From: a virus
Reading direction: 5' to 3' (one strand)
Virus record (IMG/VR): IMGVR_UViG_3300046724_000350
Span: 1 to 26,056 of that record
DNA length: 26,056 bases
Shown here: piece after piece, positions 5,259 through 21,085 of the stretch
Position numbering within the stretch: the stretch's first letter is position 1
How the letters are laid out: each line of letters begins with the position of its first letter
Notes under the pieces: generated by a model
The model's database searches: none
What the model was told of the DNA's origin: nothing
Seen by the model: the letters and a program-made list of their open reading frames with translations, nothing else
Position numbers and translations under genes: made by a program

Positions 5259-6086
5259 TCATGCCGGGCGTCCCTGCATGACGGTGGCGGCGCACGCCGC
5301 GGCGACCTGGTCCGCGATCTGGGCGACGGCGTCGCGGGCGGTGCGGGCCGGGTCGGCGAGGAAGTAGCCGAGCTTCAGGTCGCCGTTGGTGAGGCGGTAG
5401 CGGAACCGGGCCGGGACGAGCGCGGGCGCGCAGTCCTCGAACGGGACGATGGCGAGCGCGAACTCCGACGGGATGACGATCTCGCCGCGCTGGCCGGCGC
5501 TGGCCTCGACGTTCTCCACGTAGGTCAGCTGGGTCTGGCCGGTGGCGAGCCGGGTGCCCTTGGAGAAGTTAACCTTGGTGTGGGCGTGGAACTCCTGGGC
5601 GACCTCCAGCAGGTCGGCGGCCGACACGGGGCCGGCGGCGGCGACGTCGCGGGCGTTGTCCTCGAGGAACTCGGCGAACTCCTGCTGGCTGAGCCACCTG
5701 CGGTCGTTGGCCAGCCAGGTGCGCCACGGCAGCGACGTCTGCAGGGCCAGGACGAGGCGGTGCTGCTGCCAGCGTGCGCCGTCGGTCTTGTGCGCGTCCA
5801 GCACCGCCGTGAACGTCGCGGCGTCGAGGTCGGCGAAGACCTCGGTGCCGTCGTCGGCGTGCCGCTCGTAGTAGTGCGCGAACGAGGCAACGTCGCGGAC
5901 GGTGACGGTGCCGCGCTTGCGCTCGGGAAAATCGAGATAGGCGTCGCCGGTGAGGTCCAGCTTGTGGAGATTGCCGTTGGCCACGACGGCGTAGACGTAG
6001 CCGGGGTCGTACTGCGCCAGCCCGGCGGCCTCCTGGGCGAGGTCGCGGATGATTGCGGCGGCGTCGCCGGTGACTTGCTCGGTCAT
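5259..6086 (-). CDS. DUF2303 (YfdQ-like) protein
   Basis: A 275-residue protein. The middle segment, with TFTAVLDAHKTDGARW, then ALQTSLPWRTWLAND, QQEFAEFLEDNARDV and DLLEVAQEFHAHTKVNFSKG, is characteristic of the DUF2303 family (E. coli prophage YfdQ). The late strands REIVIPSEF-like and PARFRYRLTNGDLKLGYFL also fit, and the length is normal for the family. Its biochemical role is unknown; members sit beside phage recombination or replication genes, as here, three genes from RusA. The ATG follows the upstream stop by five bases. A cytoplasmic location is expected, as there is no signal or membrane segment. Confidence 0.85.
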   Translation of the reverse strand: MTEQVTGDAAAIIRDLAQEAAGLAQYDPGYVYAVVANGNLHKLDLTGDAYLDFPERKRGTVTVRDVASFAHYYERHADDGTEVFADLDAATFTAVLDAHKTDGARWQQHRLVLALQTSLPWRTWLANDRRWLSQQEFAEFLEDNARDVAAAGPVSAADLLEVAQEFHAHTKVNFSKGTRLATGQTQLTYVENVEASAGQRGEIVIPSEFALAIVPFEDCAPALVPARFRYRLTNGDLKLGYFLADPARTARDAVAQIADQVAAACAATVMQGRPA

Positions 6087-6091
6087 TGGCT

Positions 6092-6424
6092 TCAGTCCTG
6101 GGTCTCGAAGAGGGTGCCGTGGGAGCGGGGGTCGTTGCGGTTGAGGCCGCCGTGCTCGTCGTAGAAGAACAGCCCGGCGTGCGGGTCGCGGCTAGGTGAC
6201 TTGACGGACACGCGGCCGGATAGCTGGACGGTGTCGTTGTTGCCGGTGAACGGGGCGACCTCCAGCGTCAGGGTGAGGGTGCCCTTCTTGCCGACGGCGG
6301 TGACCTCCTGGACGAGGTCGGCGAGCATGGCGGCGGCCTCGTCGGCGAGCGCGCCGCGGTTGACCTGGGCGAGGACGTGCGCGAGCTGCGGCACTTCCTC
6401 CTTGGCGGCCTGCTGGTCGTTCAA
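6092..6424 (-). CDS. Unknown beta-rich protein with TTG start
   Basis: A 110-residue protein. It begins with a helix (QQAAKEEVPQLAHVLAQV) containing the acidic stretch EEV. A beta-strand block follows (GTLTLTLEVAPF, then DTVQLSGRVSVKSP). It ends with DPHAGLFFYDEHGGLNRND. The start is TTG, with AAGGGG at good spacing, in a TTGA overlap with the RusA stop. This is a conserved-type partner between RusA and DUF2303 proteins in actinophages as far as I can tell, but without a known function. The alternating strands suggest a small beta-sandwich. Confidence 0.65.
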   Translation of the reverse strand: MNDQQAAKEEVPQLAHVLAQVNRGALADEAAAMLADLVQEVTAVGKKGTLTLTLEVAPFTGNNDTVQLSGRVSVKSPSRDPHAGLFFYDEHGGLNRNDPRSHGTLFETQD

Positions 6425-6870
6425 GATTGCCCCTTATCGTTTTCTGTGATTGGCGGGTCATTGGGGACCTCGCGGACGTGGAGGACGATGCGGCCGCGCG
6501 GGTGCAGCGGGTACACCGGCCCGATCCGGTAGTGCACGGCGGTGACGTGCTTGCCGTCGTCGTCGGGCAGGACCCCGGCGGCGACCAGGCCGTCAATCAG
6601 CGGCTTGCCGGTGGCGGCGTAGTTGTCGGGGTCGCGGCGGCGCCGGTCGGGGGGCTGGTACTCGACGGTGATCTCGGCGCGCTGCAGGGCCGGGGCCTTG
6701 GCGGCGCGGGCCATGACGTGGGCGGCTGACTTGAGCTGCTGTGCGGCGCGGTTGCGCTCGGCCCAGTGCAGGCGGCCGTTCAGCGACAGGACCGGCAGCC
6801 CGGGGGGCAGGGCGATGCTGAGCTCGCGGGAGCCGGGTTCGCCGCTGGTGGTGACGGTGAACTCAGCCAC
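6421..6870 (-). CDS. rusA: RusA-family Holliday junction resolvase
   Basis: A 149-residue protein. The RusA catalytic block is clear: R79-D80-P-D82-N83, then K89, D93 and the DDD at 103-105 (GVLPDDDGKHV). These correspond to the metal-binding aspartates and the lysine of E. coli RusA, with the short insertion between the DN and the lysine that actinophage members often have. The N-terminal strand LPPGLPVLSLNGRLHW also fits the fold. RusA is a dimeric endonuclease that cuts four-way DNA junctions. Here it would resolve recombination or replication intermediates made with the RecT-like protein and the exonuclease. The GTG start overlaps the upstream stop by eight bases. Confidence 0.88.
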   Translation of the reverse strand: MAEFTVTTSGEPGSRELSIALPPGLPVLSLNGRLHWAERNRAAQQLKSAAHVMARAAKAPALQRAEITVEYQPPDRRRRDPDNYAATGKPLIDGLVAAGVLPDDDGKHVTAVHYRIGPVYPLHPRGRIVLHVREVPNDPPITENDKGQS

Positions 6871-7132: not shown

Positions 7133-7427
7133 GCTCGCGCGCCTCCCCGGCGGCCGGGCCGCCGTCAGTACGGCGGCCGTCCGTTAGCTCGGCGTAGGCG
7201 ACGCGGATGGCCGGGACGTCGCCGGGGTAGTGGTGGATGACCTTGAGCGCCCCGGCGAGGGTCGGATGATAGGCCGGGGTGAGTAGCGCCTGATGCTTGC
7301 GGCAGTCGGCCAGGTAGGCGCGGACGTCGGCGGTGAGCCGGTCCTTGCCGGTGAGATGAGGGGCGGCGTGGCCGCGTGTCCATTCACGGTTCGCGATGCC
7401 ACCGGTCCACCGCTGGTCACTCGCCAC
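7125..7427 (-). CDS. Unknown protein between RecT-like and RusA modules
   Basis: A 100-residue protein. The core LTADVRAYLADCRKHQ, LLTPAYHPTLAGALKVIHHYPGD (shown in parts) and VAYAELTDG is helical with a conserved-looking His pair. The tail is Gly/Arg rich. It starts at GTG 7427, 11 bases inside the RecT-like gene. No motif identifies it. Another reading frame in the same place has the GTGA-overlap start used elsewhere, but its protein is Arg/Pro/Ser-rich shadow sequence, so this frame is preferred. Confidence 0.55.
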   Translation of the reverse strand: MASDQRWTGGIANREWTRGHAAPHLTGKDRLTADVRAYLADCRKHQALLTPAYHPTLAGALKVIHHYPGDVPAIRVAYAELTDGRRTDGGPAAGEAREHG

Positions 7428-8601
7428 CGCGCGCCTCCTCGGCCGCCGTCAGCATCTCGATCAGGTACGCCCGCGTGTCCTCCTGCTTCGCGGCGGCCTG
7501 CGCCTTCCAGTGGCCGAGCGTGTCAAGGATTCCCTTGGCCTCGTTGCGGGACAGGTCCTTGGTCGACGCGAGCTCGCGGCCGATGATCTGCCCGCACAGC
7601 CCGCGCGCCTGGTCCTTCTCGTCGGAGCCGAACTGGAACTCCTTGTTCAGCACGGTCCAGATGGCGGTGATCTGCGGCGTGGTGACGGTGCCGTGGGTGT
7701 CGTAGTCGCTGTCATCGGGGCTGCTCGCGGAGCCATCGGGCGAACTCGTTGATGGCGGCGACGTCCCCTCTGGTGAGCGGACCTGGCCCGCAGGCGATGA
7801 CGCCCGCGGGGAGCCGGTAGGGTCCGGCTCTTCCTCGCCCGGCAGCGGCGGCAGCGCGTCACCGGACGGGGCAGTCGGCCCGCTGGCAGGGGCGGGGGCT
7901 GGGGGCTTCCGCGGTGCCTGCGCGGAGGCGTCCGCAGGTCCCGCAGCGGTAGGGCGGCGGCTGGCGCGCTGCGCGGTGCGGGGCTTGTCCGCCGCCGGCG
8001 GCGGCGCGCTCGCGGTGCCCTCGGCGGCGATGGCCGCCGGGCTGTCCTCGTCCGCGATGCCGTCCTCGATCTCCTCCGCCGCGTACGGCATCCCGGCGAT
8101 GACGTCGGCGAACGCGCGCCGTGCCAGCCGGGCCGACGCGCGGGCGTACAGCTTGTCCTGCGGGTAGCCGCCGAGCTGTAGCTTGGCCGTCTGCGCGTCC
8201 GCCGTGCTGAACCCGGCGGTGGTCCACTCGGCCTGCCCCTTGCGCCGGCCCTTGACGATGACGCGGGTGTTGGTGACCTCGACGTCTACCCACTCGTGGC
8301 CCTGCGCCTGGATGAGCGCCCGCATGACCATGGCGGACAGGCCGGGCTTGCCGTGGATGACGTGGATGTTGGCCAGGCTGGTCATCGGCGGAAGCCCCAG
8401 CTCGCGGCCGGTGAGGATCGCGGCGGCGGTGGCGGGGGCGGAGCCGCGCAGTCCCTCGGGGACGAACGGGCTGCGGCAGATGACCTCGGCGAGGCGGACG
8501 ACCTGGTCGGCGACCTGGATCCAGTCGTCCAGCTCGCCGCGGGGCGACGCGGCGACGGGGATCAGCTCGCCGCGGGGCTGGTAGATGGCTACTTCACTCA
8601 T
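7417..8601 (-). CDS. RecT-like single-strand annealing protein with C-terminal extension
   Basis: A 394-residue protein. Residues about 20-180 carry the RecT-type pattern: TAAAILTGRELGLPPMTSL, NIHVIHGKPGLSAMVMRAL, then the strands EWVDVEVTNTRVIVKGRR and YARASARLARRAFADVIAGM. RecT-type proteins bind ssDNA and anneal complementary strands. A Pro/Ser/Ala-rich linker (about 190-300) follows, then an extra C-terminal domain of about 90 residues starting GTVTTPQITAIWTVL with IIGRELASTKDLSRNEAKG. The exonuclease two genes upstream would supply its single strands. The ATG start overlaps the upstream stop by one base (TGATG). Sure of the family type; exact subfamily uncertain. Confidence 0.82.
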   Translation of the reverse strand: MSEVAIYQPRGELIPVAASPRGELDDWIQVADQVVRLAEVICRSPFVPEGLRGSAPATAAAILTGRELGLPPMTSLANIHVIHGKPGLSAMVMRALIQAQGHEWVDVEVTNTRVIVKGRRKGQAEWTTAGFSTADAQTAKLQLGGYPQDKLYARASARLARRAFADVIAGMPYAAEEIEDGIADEDSPAAIAAEGTASAPPPAADKPRTAQRASRRPTAAGPADASAQAPRKPPAPAPASGPTAPSGDALPPLPGEEEPDPTGSPRASSPAGQVRSPEGTSPPSTSSPDGSASSPDDSDYDTHGTVTTPQITAIWTVLNKEFQFGSDEKDQARGLCGQIIGRELASTKDLSRNEAKGILDTLGHWKAQAAAKQEDTRAYLIEMLTAAEEARGGE

Positions 8602-9032
8602 CAGAACGGAACCTCATCTGCGTATTGGGGCTGGTCGCGCGCCACGCGCAGCCAGTGAGCGGCCTCGGCGCGCTCGTAGTGGGCCTTGCGGTCGGCCTTG
8701 TCCTGCCAGTAGCCGACGTGGATTGAGCGGGCGAGGATGCACGGCTGGCACTTGCACTGGGCGAACTCGTCGCGGCGGCCGTAGGAGTCGGCCGGGTAGG
8801 TGTTGTGGCCCTTGATGGCGGCGAGGATCGCCTCGTGCATCTGGCTGTTCTCGGCCATGTGCTCGGCGAACGCCTCGGCGATGTTCGCCTCGCGGCAAGG
8901 GCAGGCCGGGTGGTGATCGGCGCAGGCCTCGTAGCGGAGGTCGCGCGTGTCCCTCGGCAGGTCGTAGTAGCGCGGCCGGTGGCTGTCGTTGAACCAGATG
9001 CGGCGCAGCGGGCCGACCAGGCTGGCGCTCAC
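8601..9032 (-). CDS. Unknown protein with two Cys clusters
   Basis: A 143-residue protein. Two cysteine groups stand out: C37, C44 and C46 (CADHHPACPC) and C93, C95 and C98 (CKCQPC), with a helical spacer REANIAEAFAEHMAENSQ between them. Together with nearby histidines they could coordinate one or two metal ions. It is encoded between the exonuclease and the RecT-like protein and overlaps both, so it is made at the same time as them. The start is GTG in a GTGA overlap. I cannot assign a function; a DNA-binding cofactor of the recombination pair is possible. Confidence 0.65.
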   Translation of the reverse strand: MSASLVGPLRRIWFNDSHRPRYYDLPRDTRDLRYEACADHHPACPCREANIAEAFAEHMAENSQMHEAILAAIKGHNTYPADSYGRRDEFAQCKCQPCILARSIHVGYWQDKADRKAHYERAEAAHWLRVARDQPQYADEVPF

Positions 9033-9781
9033 GAGGTGCGCACCGGGGGCATCAGCGCGTCACCCTTGTAGTCGCGCGACTCGGCGGCAGCCTTGGCCAC
9101 CTGCTGGATATAGAGGAACTGCCGCCACACGTCCGGCCCGGCATCGTACGGGTACAGGTCATAGCCGTCAGCGCGCAGCCAGATCACCCCGCACTTGTCG
9201 ACGGGGATCATCGGCACCACCTCGCCGTTGCCGTCGATGTGGTGGGTGGCGTACCGGTAGGCGGCCAGCTGGAACGCCGTATCGCCATAGGCGCCGCTGG
9301 CTGAGGTTTTCCAGTCAAGTAGCCACGTCTCGCCGTCGATGCGGGCGAGCAGGTCCAGCGTCCCGGCGTACAGGTACTTCTCGTGGTAGACGGGCGTCTC
9401 GGCGGCGATGACGTCGGGGTCCCACTCGTTGAGGAACCTGACGCAGGACTCGACGTGCCCGGCGAGCTCGTCGGGGACCTGGACCTCGTCGCCGCGGGCG
9501 ATGGGGTCGGCGAGGGCGTGGATGCGGGTGCCCTTGACGGCGGCGGTGTTGCGGGCGGCGTCGGGTGCCTTGGCGAGCTTGGCGAGGCGGCTGCCGACGG
9601 GCAGCTGGGCGAGCGAGTCCCATTCGTTGACGGCCATCTCAGCCACCGTCTTGGCTGCCCAGTTGACGAGGGCTGGCTTGGGCAGTCCGGCGTTGATGAT
9701 GGTGGTGACGCCGTCTAGCTTTCGGTCGCCTAGGTAGTAGGCGTGGCCTCGGCCGTAGTTGCTGCGCTTGAAGTCGGTCAT
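9029..9781 (-). CDS. PD-(D/E)XK exonuclease, Cas4/RecB-type
   Basis: A 250-residue nuclease. The signature residues are all visible: H89 in GTRIHALAD, E128 in AAETPVYHE, D143 in AGTLDLLARI, D156-W-K158 in WLLDWKTS, and Q171 in AFQLAAYRYA. This is the order of RecB/Cas4-like nucleases of the PD-(D/E)XK superfamily. In phages the enzyme chews one strand of duplex ends to give the single strands used by a RecT-type annealing protein, encoded two genes downstream. I see no four-cysteine iron-sulfur set, so it is not a typical Cas4. ATG 9781 overlaps the upstream TAA by one base. Confidence 0.85.
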   Translation of the reverse strand: MTDFKRSNYGRGHAYYLGDRKLDGVTTIINAGLPKPALVNWAAKTVAEMAVNEWDSLAQLPVGSRLAKLAKAPDAARNTAAVKGTRIHALADPIARGDEVQVPDELAGHVESCVRFLNEWDPDVIAAETPVYHEKYLYAGTLDLLARIDGETWLLDWKTSASGAYGDTAFQLAAYRYATHHIDGNGEVVPMIPVDKCGVIWLRADGYDLYPYDAGPDVWRQFLYIQQVAKAAAESRDYKGDALMPPVRTS

Positions 9782-10299
9782 TAGTGCAGCCCTCCGTGGC
9801 AGTGGACCTCGAAGCAGTCGGTTCCGCAGGTGCACCGGAACGCCGTGGAGCCGGTGCGGCAGCGGTGGCAGGACTGCCTTGCGCTGGCCAGGTCGGCGCG
9901 GGTGGGGGCGACCATGCGCGGGGTGAGCGCGTCCTGGGCGGCGGCGAGCTGCCCGGTGACGACATGGTCGGGGCCGGTGAGGTCGCCGAGGTGCGGCCCG
10001 TGGATGGCGTCCAGCTCGGCGAGGCTCATGGCGCGGGTGACGGGCAGGTGCTCCCGGTCCACGTCGCCGGTGACCTTGCGCAGGTGGCCGTGGCCGGGGA
10101 TGCCGCCCTGGCCGTCGCCTGCGTCCATGAGGCCGCCGACCCGCCGTGCCATGCGGTGCGCCCTGGCCAGCAGCCACACGCCGGCGGCGGCGGGGGCGAC
10201 GACGGCGGTGCACCATCCGGCGATCCGCAGTGCCTCCATGCCGGCGTAGGGGAGCGCGGCGAGGACGTAGGCGCCGAAGTCAGCCGGGTACGGGGTCAT
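9781..10299 (-). CDS. Single-pass membrane protein with C-terminal Cys cluster
   Basis: A 172-residue protein. The N-terminal quarter is hydrophobic (AYVLAALPYAGMEALRI, then TAVVAPAAAGVWLLAR), giving one or two membrane segments before a basic stop (AHRMARR). The soluble part ends in a dense cysteine-histidine group: C-H-R-C, then FRCTCGTDCFEVHCHGG, suitable for zinc. A membrane protein inside the recombination operon is unusual; it may be a host-interaction factor. The ATG overlaps the upstream stop (ATGA). Function unknown. Confidence 0.62.
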   Translation of the reverse strand: MTPYPADFGAYVLAALPYAGMEALRIAGWCTAVVAPAAAGVWLLARAHRMARRVGGLMDAGDGQGGIPGHGHLRKVTGDVDREHLPVTRAMSLAELDAIHGPHLGDLTGPDHVVTGQLAAAQDALTPRMVAPTRADLASARQSCHRCRTGSTAFRCTCGTDCFEVHCHGGLH

Positions 10300-13058: not shown

Positions 13059-13084
13059 GCCACCCCCGCGCAACCGGGGGTGGC
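13059..13084. terminator. Perfect 10-bp hairpin, possible terminator or attenuator
   Basis: GCCACCCCCG and its exact complement are separated by a six-base loop. On the plus strand a T-rich run (TTCGTTTT) follows, as in an intrinsic terminator. On the minus strand, where the early operon runs, there is no T run. It sits between the 53-residue gene and the three-module gene, so it may reduce leftward read-through or stop plus-strand antisense transcription. Confidence 0.55.
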
Positions 13085-13091
13085 TTCGTTT

Positions 13092-13253
13092 TCAGGCGGC
13101 GCGGGCGTCCGCGGGCTGCTGGCAGGCGGCGAGGATCGCCGCGCAGCGGTCGGCCTGCTCCTGGGTCAGCGGCCCGAGCTGGATGCCGCGGCGGGTCCCG
13201 GCGGCGTAGGTCGCGGCGAGGGCGCGCGGGGCGCGGGGCTGCGGCGCGGCCAT
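13092..13253 (-). CDS. Small conserved-type protein after the Cro-like gene (53 aa)
   Basis: Starts MAAPQPRAPRALAATYAAGT and continues RRGIQLGPLTQEQADRCAAI to ARAA. The ATG overlaps the stop of the XRE gene as ATGA, so both are translated from one message. The N-terminus is disordered. The core (ATYAAGTRRGIQLGPLTQEQ) ends in a helix with two cysteines. It is the first gene after the early regulator, and may therefore be made earliest; it could be an antirepressor-like or host-takeover peptide, but there is no sequence proof. Confidence 0.62.
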   Translation of the reverse strand: MAAPQPRAPRALAATYAAGTRRGIQLGPLTQEQADRCAAILAACQQPADARAA

Positions 13254-13519
13254 CAGGACGCCTGCGCGGGCAGCGGGGCGATGAGCGCGGCGACTTCCTC
13301 GCCGACGATCCTGGCAACGGGAACGCCGAGATGGCTGGCGATGGCCTGGCAGTGGTCGAGGCGGGGGCGTCGCTCGCCGCGCTCGATGTGCCGGATGTGC
13401 CCCGCGGTCACGCCGATCGCCTGGCCCAGCTCATCAGAGGTGAGGCCACGGGATTCGCGCAGCATGCGGATGATGTGGCCCGCTGCGCTCTCCCAGTCGT
13501 GCGATGGGGTTTCTGGCAT
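13253..13519 (-). CDS. XRE-family regulator, Cro-like position
   Basis: An 88-residue protein. Residues about 12-65 (AAGHIIRMLRESRGLTSDEL, then GVTAGHIRHIERGERRP) form a full XRE helix-turn-helix. A short helical tail (ARIVGEEVAALIAP) could dimerise. It heads the leftward early operon and diverges from a second XRE gene. ATG 13519 is chosen because a TTGCGC-N17-TACCGT promoter ends seven bases before it, so the message would start at the ATG. A longer start would lie inside the operator repeats. By position it resembles lambda Cro; which of the pair maintains lysogeny is inferred. Confidence 0.8.
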   Translation of the reverse strand: MPETPSHDWESAAGHIIRMLRESRGLTSDELGQAIGVTAGHIRHIERGERRPRLDHCQAIASHLGVPVARIVGEEVAALIAPLPAQAS

Positions 13520-13526
13520 GAGTGAG

Positions 13527-13555
13527 ACGGTACTCCGCGATACTTCGCAGCGCAA
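13527..13555 (-). promoter_or_regulatory. Leftward early promoter (leaderless)
   Basis: On the minus strand, TTGCGC is separated by 17 bases from TACCGT. The -10 ends seven bases before ATG 13519, so transcription would start at the first codon. One copy of the operator-like repeat lies in the spacer between -35 and -10. Confidence 0.55.
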
Positions 13556-13630
13556 GCTTAATCCTCGCGATACTTCAAATCACTTCAGATCGCTAGTCAT
13601 ATGCGATCCGTGCCGATACAATCCGATACA
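13536..13630. promoter_or_regulatory. Operator region with four CGATAC repeats
   Basis: Two exact 11-base copies of CGCGATACTTC start 30 bases apart (13536 and 13566). Two copies of CCGATACA start ten bases apart (13613 and 13623). All four have the same orientation and share CGATAC. The spacings are near whole helical turns, as for cooperatively bound repressor dimers. One copy lies within the leftward promoter and two cover the -10 and start of the rightward one. Confidence 0.72.
13594..13622 (+). promoter_or_regulatory. Rightward repressor promoter (leaderless)
   Basis: TAGTCA is followed after 17 bases by TACAAT, five of six matches to the consensus -10. The -10 ends seven bases before ATG 13630, so the message would begin with the start codon. 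The third repeat overlaps the -10 and the fourth the start site, so binding there would autoregulate the gene. Confidence 0.6.
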
Positions 13631-14082
13631 TGTCAGACCGGGGAACCCGCGCCCCAGCGCAAGACTGGTACGACCTCGTCATTCAGACGATCGCGCTCAA
13701 GAACATGACGAAGGCGCAGCTAGCGAGCCGCTCGGGCGTCTCGCGCGCCACCATTGACCGGTGGGGGAAGGGCGCGAGCCGCCCGGCTCAGGCCGCCTCC
13801 GTCAATGCCGTCGCCGACGTCCTCGGCATCCCCCGCGAGCGCGCATTGCGCCTGGCCGGGGTCATTGCCGCCGACCCGGCGGAGCCCGAGCGCTCCCCGC
13901 CGCGCGACGTCATTGACGAGGCGTTCGGTGATAAGGCCGGCGACTTCCGCGAGGCGGTGCGCCGCATCCACGGCCCCGACGCGGACCGCAAGCTCAGGCT
14001 CGTGGAAGAGGCCCTGAGTCAGCCGCCCGCCGCAGATGACGCCGCTCCCGGCACGCCTGCCGCTCGGCCAGCTCCGCGATGA
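13630..14082 (+). CDS. XRE-family repressor, CI-like position
   Basis: A 150-residue protein. Residues about 12-70 (WYDLVIQTIALKNMTKAQLA, then SGVSRATIDRWGKGASRP and AVADVLGIPRERAL) are an XRE-type helix-turn-helix domain. The C-terminal 80 residues (VIDEAFGDKAGDFREAVRRI onward) are helical and charged; there is no peptidase Ser/Lys pair, so no LexA/CI-type self-cleavage domain. Induction, if it occurs, must use another route. It diverges from the Cro-like gene and is followed by the integrase region, the usual place for a lysogeny repressor. The gene's last 89 bases overlap the 3' end of an opposite-strand gene. Confidence 0.78.
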   Translation: MSDRGTRAPAQDWYDLVIQTIALKNMTKAQLASRSGVSRATIDRWGKGASRPAQAASVNAVADVLGIPRERALRLAGVIAADPAEPERSPPRDVIDEAFGDKAGDFREAVRRIHGPDADRKLRLVEEALSQPPAADDAAPGTPAARPAPR

Positions 14083-14299
14083 CCCGCGCGTACACCTCAT
14101 CGCCCTGGCGGCGCAGCCCGAGCGCCAGCCAGCACAGCGCGGCGACGATGGTGACGGTGACCGCCCCGGACCGGTCCGCGGGCATCACCCGCGCAGGCAT
14201 GTCCCCCCACATGTCGGCGGCCGCGCCGCCCCACAGTGCGGCGGAGAAGGCAGTCAGGGCTATCGCCGTGATCTTGAGTGACCTGGTCGCTGTGCGCAC
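13994..14299 (-). CDS. Small two-segment membrane protein
   Basis: A 101-residue protein with two hydrophobic helices, ITAIALTAFSAALWGGAAAD (about 10-29) and VTVTIVAALCWLALGL (about 47-62), and a charged, Arg-rich cytoplasmic-type tail (YARVIAELAERQACRERRH). The start is GTG 14299, with GGGGAGG five bases before it, which rules out a longer upstream reading. It runs opposite to the repressor and shares 89 bases with its 3' end. A small membrane protein expressed from a lysogeny region might act in superinfection exclusion; that is conjecture. Confidence 0.62.
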   Translation of the reverse strand: MRTATRSLKITAIALTAFSAALWGGAAADMWGDMPARVMPADRSGAVTVTIVAALCWLALGLRRQGDEVYARVIAELAERQACRERRHLRRAADSGPLPRA

Positions 14300-14472
14300 G
14301 GGGACCTCCCCAGTCCGTTGTGACGCTGCGCGGGCGATTCTTATGCAATTGCACGGAATCTCTCTAGGACTCGTTAAGCTACTCCCGCTGTCTGCCGTTG
14401 ACAAGGCTTATCCGTTGTTATCCGTTGTTGTCTTTAACCCTCTGAACCGCATCTGTGACAAGGAGCAGCGCC
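14300..14472. promoter_or_regulatory. Intergenic control region before the integrase genes
   Basis: This stretch holds no gene. It contains the palindrome TGCAATTGCA (14344-14353) and a perfect TTGACA (14398-14403) facing the integrase genes; its -10 is weak. An overlapping minus-strand TTGTCA is placed 17 bases from TAGCTT (14376-14381), facing the membrane gene. Two tandem copies of TTATCCGTTG lie at 14408-14427. AAGGAG (14460-14465) serves the next gene. It is one of two places where attP might lie. Confidence 0.5.
14408..14427. repeat. Tandem 10-bp repeat TTATCCGTTG x2
   Basis: Two exact head-to-tail copies followed by a partial third (TTG). The 10-bp period equals about one helical turn. 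It lies just downstream of TTGACA and would overlap the core promoter of the integrase transcript. Confidence 0.75.
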
Positions 14473-14745
14473 ATGACCAGCGACCCCTACTCGCAGCAGC
14501 CGCCCCGGTACCCGCCGCAGCAACCCCCGTCACAGCCGTACCCGGGCCAGTGGTCCCGGCAGCCGCCCGGCTACCAGCCGCCGTACGGCTCCAGCCGCGA
14601 GGCCGTCTCCGTCCGCGGCGAGATGGGCCAGCCGGAGAAGATCGCCTGGGCGGTCGCCGTCATGTGCACGCTCGGCCTGGCGCTCCCGTTCTACCTGGCG
14701 AAGAAGCGGAAGCTGCGCCGCACGACGGTCACCCGCTACCGCTGA
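14473..14745 (+). CDS. Small membrane protein with Pro-rich N-terminus
   Basis: A 90-residue protein. The first 50 residues are Pro/Gln/Tyr rich (PPRYPPQQPPSQPYPGQW) and disordered. One hydrophobic helix, KIAWAVAVMCTLGLALPFYL, follows, then a short, very basic end (AKKRKLRRTTVTRYR). ATG 14473 has AAGGAG seven bases before it, so a start 18 bases earlier is less likely. It is nine bases from the integrase start, so the two are probably transcribed together. A role in integration direction is possible, as recombination directionality factors of serine integrases are diverse small proteins, but a membrane helix argues against it. Confidence 0.68.
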   Translation: MTSDPYSQQPPRYPPQQPPSQPYPGQWSRQPPGYQPPYGSSREAVSVRGEMGQPEKIAWAVAVMCTLGLALPFYLAKKRKLRRTTVTRYR

Positions 14746-14754
14746 GGCCGCCCC

Positions 14755-16140
14755 GTGGAAGACGCCGCCCCGAGGGCCGCGATCTACACCCGCATGTCGT
14801 ACGCGCTGGACGACGACCAGACCAAGGTCGCCGACCAGGAGCGCAGGTGCCGCGAGCTCGCCGCCGCGCGGGATATCGAGGTCGGCCCGGTCTACACCGA
14901 CAACAACCGCTCCGCGTGGCGGCGTGGCCGCAAGCGCCCCGGCTGGGACGCCATGCTGGCCGGCATCGAGGGCGGCCGCATCGCCACTATCGTCACCTAC
15001 CACGGCGACAGGCTGATGAGGCAGCCGCGCGACCTGGAGACCCTCATAGAACTGGCCGAGTCCAAGGGCATCCGGATCCTGTCGGTGGCCGGGACGCGCG
15101 ACCTGGACTCCGCCGATGACCGGTTCATCCTGCGGATCGAGGTGGCCCAGGCGTGCAAGGCGTCCGACGACTCGTCCCGCCGCAAGAAGGCGCAGCTGGA
15201 GCGGTGGCGGGCAGCGGGGCGCACGGTGACCGGCGGCCGCGGCGGCCGGCCGTACGGGTTCGCCACCGACGGGGTGAGCGCGGTCCCGGCCGAGCAGGAC
15301 GTCATCAGGGACGCCGCGCGGCGGGTGCTGGCCGGCCAGTCGGTCACGTCCGCGGCCCGTGAGCTCACCGCCGCGGGGCACCGCACCCCGGCTGGGAACG
15401 CGTGGACGCACGACAGCCTCCGCAAGATGCTCGCCCGGCCGCGGCTGGCCGGGCTGATGCCCGACGGCGAGAGCCGCGCCGCATGGGAGCCGGTGCTGGA
15501 CCGCGAGGAGTGGGAGCGGCTGCGCCTGGCGCTCGACGGCCGCGCGGCCGCCAACCCGAAGGCGACCAGCGCCCGCAGGTGGCTGCTGGCCGGCATCGCC
15601 CGCTGCGGCGCCCCGGGCGCCGACGGCGAGTGCGGCGGCCTGATGCGCTCATCCCGCGCGGGGGACAACAGGCCGGTCTACTCATGCTCGGCCTGCCGCC
15701 GCCTGGACCGGTCCGCCGTCCACCTGGACGCGTACGTGTCCGCGGCGGTCGCGGCCCGGCTCGGCGACGAGGCCAACCCGGTGCCCGCCGTGCCCGCCGT
15801 GCCAGCGCACGCGGCCGAGTGGGCGGCGCTGGGCAGGCAGCGCGCCGAGGTCGACGCCCTCCTCGGCGACTACCGGGCGAGCGCCGGGCGCACGCGGACG
15901 CTGATGCGGCAGCTGGACCAGATCGACGCCCGGATGGCCCAGCTGCGCGAGCAGGCGGGCGCGTCCGAGCGGGAGCGGCTGCTAAGCCAGTACCGCGGCA
16001 CCACGCTGGCGGAGTTCCTGGACCTCCCGCTGGACGTGCGCCGGGCGCTCACCCGGGCTACGGTGAAGGTGACGGTGCTGCCCGCCAGCAGGCGCGGGCC
16101 GGGATTCCGGGAGTGCGATGCCCGCGTGGAGACCGCGTGA
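14755..16140 (+). CDS. int: Large serine integrase
   Basis: A 461-residue site-specific recombinase. The catalytic domain (about 1-150) has R13 and nucleophile S15 in IYTRMSYALDDD, and D85-R86 with R89 in GDRLMRQPRDLE. A recombinase domain (about 165-260) follows. A zinc ribbon has C284, C293, C311 and C314. A coiled-coil segment (about 355-405) is rich in Gln, Leu and Asp. This is the full order of large serine integrases (the phiC31/Bxb1 class), at a normal length. It inserts phage DNA at a host attB by double-strand breaks with a covalent Ser-DNA intermediate. The GTG start has GAGG nearby. Both site and directionality factor are unidentified. Confidence 0.93.
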   Translation: MEDAAPRAAIYTRMSYALDDDQTKVADQERRCRELAAARDIEVGPVYTDNNRSAWRRGRKRPGWDAMLAGIEGGRIATIVTYHGDRLMRQPRDLETLIELAESKGIRILSVAGTRDLDSADDRFILRIEVAQACKASDDSSRRKKAQLERWRAAGRTVTGGRGGRPYGFATDGVSAVPAEQDVIRDAARRVLAGQSVTSAARELTAAGHRTPAGNAWTHDSLRKMLARPRLAGLMPDGESRAAWEPVLDREEWERLRLALDGRAAANPKATSARRWLLAGIARCGAPGADGECGGLMRSSRAGDNRPVYSCSACRRLDRSAVHLDAYVSAAVAARLGDEANPVPAVPAVPAHAAEWAALGRQRAEVDALLGDYRASAGRTRTLMRQLDQIDARMAQLREQAGASERERLLSQYRGTTLAEFLDLPLDVRRALTRATVKVTVLPASRRGPGFRECDARVETA

Positions 16141-17797: not shown

Positions 17798-20700
17798 TCA
17801 TGAGGCGAACGGGGCTTCCGGCACGCACGCCAGCGCGACGTCGAACCGGAACCCCGAGATCGTCCAGGTGAACCCGAACGCCAGCTGGTTGATGTCCGCC
17901 GACGTCAGGTCGGCGGGGCCGTTGACCACCCGCAGGTAGTCACCGGGGATCATCGCCACCACCTGCGCGTACAGCTCGGCCGCCGCGCTGCGGCTCAGCT
18001 GGAAGTTCACCGCCGGGTACCGGTCATCGTCGACGGTGCCCAGCTCCAGGATCCTCGCCGCCACGCCCGCCAGCTGGCTGTCAGCGTAGGCGTTGACGGT
18101 CAGCGGGAACGGGTACTGGCCTGCGCCGTCCGGCGGCGCAAGGTAGGACAGCGCCCCGGCAGACTGCCGCACGGTCACGCTCGACCCGTTGACCCGGCTC
18201 ACGGTGACGATGTTGCGGGTCAGCAGGTCATCCTCGGTCGGCAGGAACGGCGCGGACAGCTGCGCGAGCGAGTAGTCGGCGATCACCTTCGGGTGCTGGG
18301 CGGTCATGCTGGCCAGGGTGCGGTACGCCAGCCCGAACACGCTCGCCGGCTCGTACAGCAGGCCGCCGTCGAGGTCGGGGATCTGCTGCAGGACGTTGAT
18401 CAGCTTGTCATCGGGCTGCGGGCCCATCGCCGGGGTGGCATCGACGTTGCCCGGGATTGCGTACTGGACGCCCTCCTCGCTGCACAGGCGGATGAACCGG
18501 CGCCCGGCCCGCTCCTGGGCCCAGCCGGAGACCGGGCCGAGGCCATTGACGTTGCTGCCGGCCAGGCTGCTGAGCGCCTCGGAGGAGTACTGGACCAGGA
18601 GGTGCCCGAATGACGTGCTGGTCAGCGCGCCGCCGGGGTTGACGTCGACCTCGGGGACGCCGCCGATGCCCCCGGACGCTGACGCGGTCCCGCCCGTCGC
18701 GGTCTGGCTCGACGGGTTGTTGGCGGGCATCACCCGCAGCACGTAGCCGACCGTCGCGCCGGGGACGAGCTCCATGGACACCATGAAGGGGACGCCGTTG
18801 ACCCCGGTGATCCCGGCCGAGGTGAACAGCAGGCCGCCGCCGGCGTTCTTCCCGGTGAGGGTCAGCGTCCCCGATGACGCGGTGGTGTAGGTGAGGATGA
18901 CCGTGGCCACGACGCCGCCGGTCAGGTACTGGCACACGACCGCGTTGTTCGTGTCGCCGCCGGCCGGGACGTGCAGCAGGAACCGGGTGAAGTTCCCCGC
19001 CGGGGCGGCCAGCGGCGTCCAGGACAGCTTCACCTTCCCGGCGCCGCCGTTGCCGCCGCCGTGCGCGGCCTGGCTGCCGGCGTTCATGCCGCCGGACCCG
19101 CCGCCGGCGCCGGGCACCGCGCCCGCGGTGCCGCCCTGGTCGGCCGCTCCGCCGTTGCCGCCCTTGCCGCCCGCGCCGCCGCCGGTGACCGCCGCTCCCC
19201 CCGCCGCGCCGGTGTTGCTCGCGCCGCCGCCAGTGCCGTTGTTCCCGGCCGCGGCCGTGCCGCCGGACGACCCGCCGCCGGACCCCCCGTAGAACAGGCC
19301 GGAGTTCTTCCCGCCGTTGCCGCCGTTGTGATGGGTGGCGTTGGCGCTCCCGGTGCCGCCCTTCCCGGACCGGGTACCGGTGAACAGGCCTCCGCCGCCG
19401 CCGTGGGCGGTCACCGTCACCGCGTCGCCGGGGAAGGATGACGTGCCGCCGTTAGCGCCCTGCCGCTGCCGCAGGCCGGTGGCGATGGTGGCCAGCGGCC
19501 CGCCCGCCCCGCCCGCGCCGACCGTCACCGTGTACGCGGTCCCCGCGGTGACCGCCACCGCGGTTTCCTTCGCGTACTCGCCGCCGCCGCCCGCCGCGTC
19601 CATGTTGTTATTGGCCTGGTAGCCGTTCGTCCCGCCGCCGCCGCCGGCCCAGCACTCCGCCGCCGTCAGCGACGTCAGCCCGTCCCGCGGAACGAACGAG
19701 TGCGTCCCGGGGCTGGTGAACGTCGCCGAGCCGGGGTCGCCGAACGGGCCGGTCAGGCAGGTGATCACGGCCCCGTTCAGCGCCGGCAGCGGGTCCGACC
19801 CGCCGAAGCTGGCATCAGAGGCCAGCGTCGGCGTCCCGGTGAACGTCGCCGGCGACCCGGCGCCGGTCACCTCGGCCAGCGTCGCCGACGTGGACCCGTC
19901 CTCCATCGGCCAGTACGCCACCGGGTACAGCGGGTCGGACGGGTCCTTCTGCAGGTACCAGCGGGACAGCGCCGACCCCAGGTTCCCGGCCTGGTTCAGG
20001 CGGCGGCTGATCCCCGACGCGGTGATGTCGCACCACACGTCGTTCCCGCTGGTGTCCCGGGACTTCGGCCAGGAGGAGACCTCGCCGGAGAACGCGTACG
20101 CCAGCCCGGCGTCGGTGGAGTTCCACGACGCGGGCACGAGCACCCGGATCTGGGTGTTGCGGGTGATGTACGGGTAGAACGGGCTGGCCGTGTTCTTGCC
20201 GGTGAACGTGCCGCCGCGGTTGTTCAGCTGCAGCGTGCACTTCGCGGTGACCAGCTTGGACGACTCATCGGGCTGCCCGAACGTAATGCCGACGTTCACT
20301 GACCCGTCGCGCTGGTAGACGTAGCTTGTGATGTCGGTCCAGGTGCCGTTCAGCAGCAGGTCAACCTCCAGCTCCAGCGGCCCGGACCGCGGCCACGGGG
20401 TGCCGGTGAACTGCCCGTACAGTGAGCTGTAGGCGTCGGCGTAAAGGTCGGTGTACTCGCTCATGAGCGCGGTGGCGGCCATCGTCGCCGTGGAGCTCGG
20501 GGCCAGGTCGATTTCCAGCAGCGCGGGGAAGTCGCCGGCGTCCTCGTAGGCGCAGCTGAAGAACGGGCCGCCGCCGCCCGACGTGGTGGCCAGCACCGTC
20601 GGCCCGGGCGTGAGCCAGGTGGGGGCGGCGGAGGCGTTGACGGAGAACGCGATGACGTAGCCGTTCGCCGCCGAGGGCAGCGCCGGGACGGACAGCTGGA

Positions 20701-21085
20701 AGGACGCCGCGGCGACCGTGTCCGCCGCGGCGGTGAACTGGACCGGGACGAACAGCGTCCCCGGGCCGGCCACCCCGATGAAGTTGATCACCGCGCCGGA
20801 GGAGATCGTCACCGTCAGCGTGTCCGAGGTGGTCAGCGGCGTGGTCACCCATGCCTTGTAGATCCATGCGGGCTGGCCGGTGGTGGTGGCCTGATGGCCG
20901 GCCAGGGTGTACGCGTTGCCCTTGGAGTCCGCCACGGAGCTGATCGCCGGCGTGTCGGACGATACCGAGATCCCGATCACCAGCGGCGTCCCGGCGGCCA
21001 CCGCGGACGCGAAGGTTCCCGCCGTCGAGGTGACCGACCCGGCGGAGTTCTTGCTGACGACGACGGCCGGGACGGTGAACGGCAT
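17798..21085 (-). CDS. Minor tail protein with inserted glycine-rich domain
   Basis: A 1095-residue virion protein. An N-terminal beta-sandwich (about 1-110, ISSVADSKGNAYTLAGHQ) is followed by a tail-hub type part (about 225-380, ELEVDLLLNGTWTDITSYVY, FSGEVSSWPKSRD). A LamG-like domain begins near PVAYWPMEDGSTSATLAE. At about residues 460-690 it is interrupted by a glycine-rich domain whose start, TSLTAAECWAGGGGG, then GGGGEYAKETAVAVT and AYTVTVGAGGAGG, is that of phage adhesin Gly-rich domains. LamG-type and tail-hub sequence resumes at NFTRFLLHVPAGG and runs to the end. It probably sits at the tail tip and takes part in host binding. Overlaps the next gene's stop by one base. Confidence 0.82.
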   Translation of the reverse strand: MPFTVPAVVVSKNSAGSVTSTAGTFASAVAAGTPLVIGISVSSDTPAISSVADSKGNAYTLAGHQATTTGQPAWIYKAWVTTPLTTSDTLTVTISSGAVINFIGVAGPGTLFVPVQFTAAADTVAAASFQLSVPALPSAANGYVIAFSVNASAAPTWLTPGPTVLATTSGGGGPFFSCAYEDAGDFPALLEIDLAPSSTATMAATALMSEYTDLYADAYSSLYGQFTGTPWPRSGPLELEVDLLLNGTWTDITSYVYQRDGSVNVGITFGQPDESSKLVTAKCTLQLNNRGGTFTGKNTASPFYPYITRNTQIRVLVPASWNSTDAGLAYAFSGEVSSWPKSRDTSGNDVWCDITASGISRRLNQAGNLGSALSRWYLQKDPSDPLYPVAYWPMEDGSTSATLAEVTGAGSPATFTGTPTLASDASFGGSDPLPALNGAVITCLTGPFGDPGSATFTSPGTHSFVPRDGLTSLTAAECWAGGGGGTNGYQANNNMDAAGGGGEYAKETAVAVTAGTAYTVTVGAGGAGGPLATIATGLRQRQGANGGTSSFPGDAVTVTAHGGGGGLFTGTRSGKGGTGSANATHHNGGNGGKNSGLFYGGSGGGSSGGTAAAGNNGTGGGASNTGAAGGAAVTGGGAGGKGGNGGAADQGGTAGAVPGAGGGSGGMNAGSQAAHGGGNGGAGKVKLSWTPLAAPAGNFTRFLLHVPAGGDTNNAVVCQYLTGGVVATVILTYTTASSGTLTLTGKNAGGGLLFTSAGITGVNGVPFMVSMELVPGATVGYVLRVMPANNPSSQTATGGTASASGGIGGVPEVDVNPGGALTSTSFGHLLVQYSSEALSSLAGSNVNGLGPVSGWAQERAGRRFIRLCSEEGVQYAIPGNVDATPAMGPQPDDKLINVLQQIPDLDGGLLYEPASVFGLAYRTLASMTAQHPKVIADYSLAQLSAPFLPTEDDLLTRNIVTVSRVNGSSVTVRQSAGALSYLAPPDGAGQYPFPLTVNAYADSQLAGVAARILELGTVDDDRYPAVNFQLSRSAAAELYAQVVAMIPGDYLRVVNGPADLTSADINQLAFGFTWTISGFRFDVALACVPEAPFAS

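Follow-up and report, generated by a model that had tools for sequence, protein, structure and literature searches.

The stretch of DNA analysed here (the window) comprises 26,056 bases of the IMG/VR virus record IMGVR_UViG_3300046724_000350 and probably contains a lysogeny switch in which a 150-aa XRE repressor and an 88-aa XRE Cro counterpart occupy one-turn, head-to-tail runs of operators placed over leaderless promoters. Six copies of one short word lie on a single strand between the two divergent genes, five of them at exact 10-bp steps, and the same geometry recurs, with different words, in switches of other actinophages.

The region is an immunity cassette, and the soil actinophage that carries it is temperate; the repressor lies on the same side as the integrase and Cro on that of the lytic genes. 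A compact lysogeny switch was also the view of an earlier note on this DNA, and it is borne out by the gene content: two divergent HTH_3 genes, with lytic-type recombination genes leftward and a repressor-like gene and a serine integrase rightward. The genes concerned are as follows.

6421..6870, minus strand: RusA-like resolvase of the leftward operon (PHROG 34, 7.1e-26)
7417..8601, minus strand: RecT-like annealing protein of the leftward operon (PHROG 4171, 1.3e-39)
9029..10216, minus strand: exonuclease of the leftward operon (PHROG 298, 2.9e-45)
13253..13519, minus strand: Cro-like gene P0001, 88 aa, first gene of the leftward, lytic-direction operon (Pfam HTH_3, 1.4e-14)
13630..14082, plus strand: repressor-like gene P0002, 150 aa (HTH_3, 6.2e-6; PHROG 3949 transcriptional repressor, 2.8e-9)
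14755..16140, plus strand: large serine integrase (Pfam Resolvase, 2.9e-20, and Recombinase, 9.2e-12; PHROG 95 integrase, 8.4e-70)

The leftward operon also includes a DUF2303 gene, and a strong intrinsic-terminator-like hairpin is found within the leftward operon region at 13059-13084 (plus strand). Elsewhere in the window, positions 17798-21085 encode a 1095-aa protein with a glycine-rich domain, similar to a PHROG annotated as phosphodiesterase, and a tape-measure-like gene is nearby.

The structure model of P0001 shows a confident five-helix HTH domain (pLDDT 86.5), whose nearest PDB fold is ClgR and which also resembles C-proteins and P22 c2; the protein can be aligned with Cro-family proteins of other switches. 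P0002 lies upstream of the serine integrase and is co-directional with it. Its HTH is well modelled and its C-terminal helices are of low confidence. Over 66 aa (residues 13-78) P0002 is 39% identical to an XRE protein encoded beside the pMLP1 integrase. That protein (L008, 2971-3393) is its closest named relative and is labelled excisionase in AY150027, a label that may be wrong.

The earlier note had described four copies of CGATAC between the two XRE genes, and these were found exactly where it placed them, on the plus strand at 13538, 13568, 13614 and 13624. The longer repeats CGCGATACTTC (13536-13546 and 13566-13576, 30 bp apart) and CCGATACA (13613-13620 and 13623-13630, 10 bp apart) all lie on the same strand, again as described. 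However, the account was incomplete, as two further copies with one mismatch each (13604-13609 and 13528-13533) lie exactly 10 bp from an exact copy. While the repeats are indeed same-strand, their division into two classes and four sites does not hold: the unit is the one-turn array and there are six sites. With up to one mismatch allowed, CGATAC occurs at 13528, 13538, 13568, 13604, 13614 and 13624, each reading GTATCG or its variant on the minus strand, and exact 10-bp steps join them into two runs, 13528/13538 and 13604/13614/13624. The spacings in the switch are thus 10, 10, 10 and 30 bp. The sites and the predicted promoters are listed here in order.

13527..13555, minus strand: predicted leftward (Cro) promoter, TTGCGC-17-TACCGT, its -10 ending 7 nt before the ATG at 13519
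13528..13533, minus strand: operator-like copy GTACCG (1 mismatch), over the leftward -10 and 10 bp from the next copy
13538..13543, minus strand: operator-like copy GTATCG, in the leftward -35/-10 spacer
13568..13573, minus strand: operator-like copy GTATCG, between the promoters and 30 bp from the copy at 13538
13572..13591, plus strand: second 10-bp tandem pair, ACTTCAAATC/ACTTCAGATC, overlapping the middle (13568) copy
13594..13622, plus strand: predicted rightward (repressor) promoter, TAGTCA-17-TACAAT, its -10 ending 7 nt before the ATG
13604..13609, minus strand: operator-like copy GGATCG (1 mismatch), in the rightward -35/-10 spacer
13614..13619, minus strand: operator-like copy GTATCG, overlapping the rightward -10
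13624..13629, minus strand: operator-like copy GTATCG, at the predicted rightward transcript start

Three 10-bp pairs were reached in none of 3000 shuffles, and four copies of any hexamer in the 110-bp region arose in 2 of 5000 dinucleotide shuffles (four copies of CGATAC itself never arose in 20,000). Self-identity over the whole switch region peaks at lag 10 among lags 4-60 (0.427, compared with a mean of 0.25; 0/3000 shuffles). The 30-bp spacing was dropped as a feature in its own right, since the lag-30 self-match of the whole region was matched in 22% of shuffles. A point against the proposed reading is that the two runs do not keep one helical phase throughout, 13568 and 13604 being 36 bp apart.

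The rightward promoter is the only promoter match in the 1.2 kb scanned, while its leftward counterpart was identified by position only and has a weak -35 (3/6). As the -10 lies seven bases before the start codon at both promoters, both transcripts are predicted to be leaderless. The placement of sites on the promoters agrees with the earlier note: 13538 is inside the leftward promoter, 13614 is over the rightward -10 and 13624 is at the predicted start. With all six sites considered, each promoter has one site in its -35/-10 spacer and one over its -10, and the right run adds a third at the predicted start.

XRE dimers normally bind palindromes, and the sites might accordingly be lambda-like operators, that is, degenerate palindromes of which only the half-site GTATCG is conserved, with the 10-bp steps reflecting dimers placed side by side. 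The usual binding mode of the family counts for this explanation, as does the resemblance of the predicted P0001 fold to ClgR, C-proteins and P22 c2, and there is a precedent in BPs gp33, for which the second half-site can be nearly unrecognisable (PMC4557955). However, no inverted repeat of ≥ 8 nt was found in the switch region, the region between the XRE genes holds no GTATCG-like copy (≤ 1 mismatch) in the opposite orientation, and the signal across the group of switches is same-strand at 10 bp. Palindromic operators were rejected on the first two of these grounds, and degenerate ones are unlikely.

Alternatively, asymmetric operators might be bound independently by monomers, as in L5, without head-to-tail contact, the one-turn spacing reflecting promoter packing only. 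Monomeric recognition of asymmetric operators is established for cluster A phages (PMC9283540; PMC1934351). L5-type sites, however, are scattered genome-wide, whereas CGATAC on both strands of the whole window is near chance outside the switch (9 found, 6.4 expected), and scattered sites of the L5 kind were rejected on this count. Furthermore, a strict 10-bp step is unexplained unless there is contact or a same-face constraint. Binding by independent monomers is unlikely, and head-to-tail runs remain the preferred reading.

Searches for close relatives covered viral contigs, genome contigs and plasmids. In these, no phage with both window proteins was found and no close relative of either protein was confirmed. 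A widened P0002 alignment gave one locus only, with the same 39% match (residues 13-78) as pMLP1; an integrase alignment found no relatives among genome contigs, and megablast against phages gave no match to the window. As no locus has both proteins, the word CGATAC itself is without comparative support.

The immunity block appears, from alignment with region L003, to have been exchanged as a unit. The L003 integrase is 79% identical to that of the window, and the two regions can be aligned at 77-85% identity over window positions 13204-13262 and from 14097 onward. Between these, window 13262-14097 and L003 4225-5128 are not alignable, and both HTH genes and the operators differ, which fits replacement of the immunity type in a single block. 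Unlike the switch, an element at 14399-14431 is kept in L003 (around 5425-5460); it consists of TTGACA followed by two tandem copies of TTATCCGTTG at a 10-bp step, upstream of a gene near 14473, and may be a further operator or else an attP element.

The geometry of the switch was compared with that of other phages by a test that is independent of the sequence of the repeats and takes, for every lag between 4 and 60, the strongest match of a region to itself on the same strand. A discovery set was made up of phages with related integrases, most of which have divergent HTH pairs near the integrase. In its 15 switches lag 10 ranked first (mean Z 1.72). As the idea had arisen from reading the discovery intergenic regions, two further independent sets were fetched. 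Among 27 loci fetched by repressor family, lag 10 had a mean Z of 2.21 (next best lag 0.78) and a score of ≥ 6 was reached in 19; in control windows of the same 27 loci, GC-matched although somewhat GC-richer (0.60 vs 0.54), the score averaged 1.6 with a maximum of 5, and the lag-10 mean Z was about 0. For 14 loci fetched by Cro family the lag-10 mean Z was 3.16 (next 1.42). It was 2.91 after removal of similar regions, and lag 10 then ranked first in 7 of 12. The repeated words differ among switches, and what they have in common is the 10-bp same-strand layout.

The signal has limits. In seven switches of non-actinobacterial phages there was no peak at lag 10 (mean Z 0.14), and the lag-10 mean Z was 0.35 for eight annotated immunity regions from actinophages with other types of repressor. 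Among these eight only Gordonia phage Lton was positive; its record has entries for both a Cro protein and an immunity repressor. A clear lag-10 pair is also missing from discovery regions L005, L008, L009 and L022, two of which peak at 11 bp, and from several regions of the test sets.

All sites facing one way, as the earlier note emphasized, is true of the window (best mirrored match 4/6, same-orientation match 5/6) but atypical, since relatives more often mirror their arrays between promoters: among the other switches, exact copies at the opposite promoter were mirrored in 12 cases and in the same orientation in 5.

Individual regions vary in further ways. Three-copy one-turn arrays are present on the repressor side in L095 (about 1815-1850) and at the matching place in L100 and L101; these read TAGGCACCGA TAGGCACCGA TAGGCAACAG and CGCAACGGCG CGCAACGATC GGCAACAGAG. 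Tandems of GTATCG in L096, L100 and L101 were considered as shared CGATAC operators and set aside, as they overlap the -10 of these regions and the match may owe part to the -10 (TATCGT). In L003, L013, L014, L026, L028 and L031 the divergent partner is a small Xis/BldC-like protein rather than an XRE Cro, and most of these regions still keep one-turn arrays.

The repeats are seated at the predicted leaderless promoters of Cro genes. TAnnnT ends 5-8 bases before the start codon in 33/34 Cro-family genes, a figure that may be inflated as some start codons were picked among in-frame candidates by homology; the background at ATG/GTG positions generally is 1.1%. When 31 Cro promoters were aligned on their -10, identity at lag 10 was 0.46, compared with 0.23-0.30 at lags 8, 9, 11 and 12. 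It reached its maximum within the spacer and immediately upstream of the -10; the first copy falls in the spacer and the second covers the -10. The window follows the same pattern, its Cro-gene -10 lying 5-8 nt before the start codon and tandem copies occupying the spacer and the -10. At leaderless-like starts in these loci, non-XRE genes, as classed by HMM, had a lag-10 identity of 0.291, compared with 0.468 for the Cro family (P = 8e-9, which is optimistic as some loci overlap). As the non-XRE starts lack the lag-10 signal, the feature belongs to the switch and not to leaderless promoters generally.

Several known systems share part of this arrangement. As in lambda CI/Cro, divergent repressor and Cro genes flank a shared operator region, but the window operators are not palindromic. 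The cassette of mycobacteriophage BPs is similar in that repressor and integrase are co-directional and Cro and early lytic genes divergent, with two promoters between; its operators, however, are 12-bp palindromic half-sites (PMC4557955), of which the switch region has none, with direct repeats instead. Immunity in BPs is integration-dependent, whereas the window integrase is a serine recombinase. P2 C binds cooperatively to direct non-palindromic repeats around a -10 (PMC4752584), as is predicted here, but in P2 the two 8-bp repeats are spaced by 22 bp (two turns) and the partner is Cox, while the window has one-turn runs of two and three, at both promoters, and an XRE partner.

Direct repeats one helix turn apart, bound head-to-tail and cooperatively, are known for 186 Apl and other recombination directionality factors (PMC7498355) and for the host regulator BldC (PMC5859096). 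Apl, too, sits between divergent phage promoters, but these proteins are Xis/MerR-like or otherwise unrelated, whereas both window proteins are XRE HTH_3. Lambda CII is likewise a phage regulator that recognises a direct repeat, through two same-facing subunits (PMC9986795), although it is a tetrameric activator and the window runs cover spacer and -10, as expected of repressors. Non-palindromic operators are also found in L5/Bxb1/L1, phi105 and P1 (PMC1934351); those of L5 are 13 bp long and genome-wide, in contrast to the short window sites, which are grouped in one-turn runs within the switch alone. Phage operators that are asymmetric or made of direct repeats are therefore already known, and the window layout is a variant. 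The earlier contrast between same-strand, non-palindromic operators and lambda-type switches consequently describes no new kind of operator, but the layout does recur, in the form of tandem repeats at one-turn steps, among the switches of related actinophages. In the open-access literature, no account was found of actinophage switches in which XRE pairs have one-turn arrays.

The proposed mechanism starts from six GTATCG-type sites, all read toward the Cro gene; the leftward promoter has two of them and the rightward promoter three, and the remaining site lies between. One HTH per protomer would read one site of roughly 8-10 bp, and neighbouring protomers would lie on the same face of the DNA, touching head-to-tail. 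A filled run would cover the -35/-10 spacer and the -10 of a leaderless promoter and shut it off. With the left run filled by repressor the phage would stay dormant, while Cro on the right run would shut off the repressor and integrase. Head-to-tail cooperative binding is suggested by the geometry only; repression, and the assignment of each protein to a run, are likewise inferred from the layout.

In a sub-variant, not exclusive of the head-to-tail reading, the arrays may serve one protein alone, such as the repressor acting at both promoters, while its counterpart may use other sites, for example ACTTCAAATC/ACTTCAGATC. The presence of this second 10-bp tandem in the window counts for it, and related switches keep one-turn arrays with an Xis/BldC-like partner (L003, L014, L026) as well as with an XRE partner, favouring the repressor as common user. 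However, similarity of operator words tracks repressor relatedness and Cro relatedness equally (co-variation), and use by a single protein is possible but less likely than not.

Few types of phage repressor are as common as those of the XRE family. Perhaps, although we hold this only tentatively, the window represents a widespread class of actinophage switch, in which XRE pairs bind head-to-tail on one-turn direct repeats that cover the spacer and -10 at leaderless promoters, the word varying and the geometry being fixed. If true, a same-strand layout that keeps its one-turn step while the words change, across dozens of actinophage switches, would provide a rule for finding operators and immunity groups from sequence, and such a rule would serve phages with uncharacterised immunity. 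The layout also raises the structural question of how direct repeats spaced by a single turn are recognised by an XRE protein.
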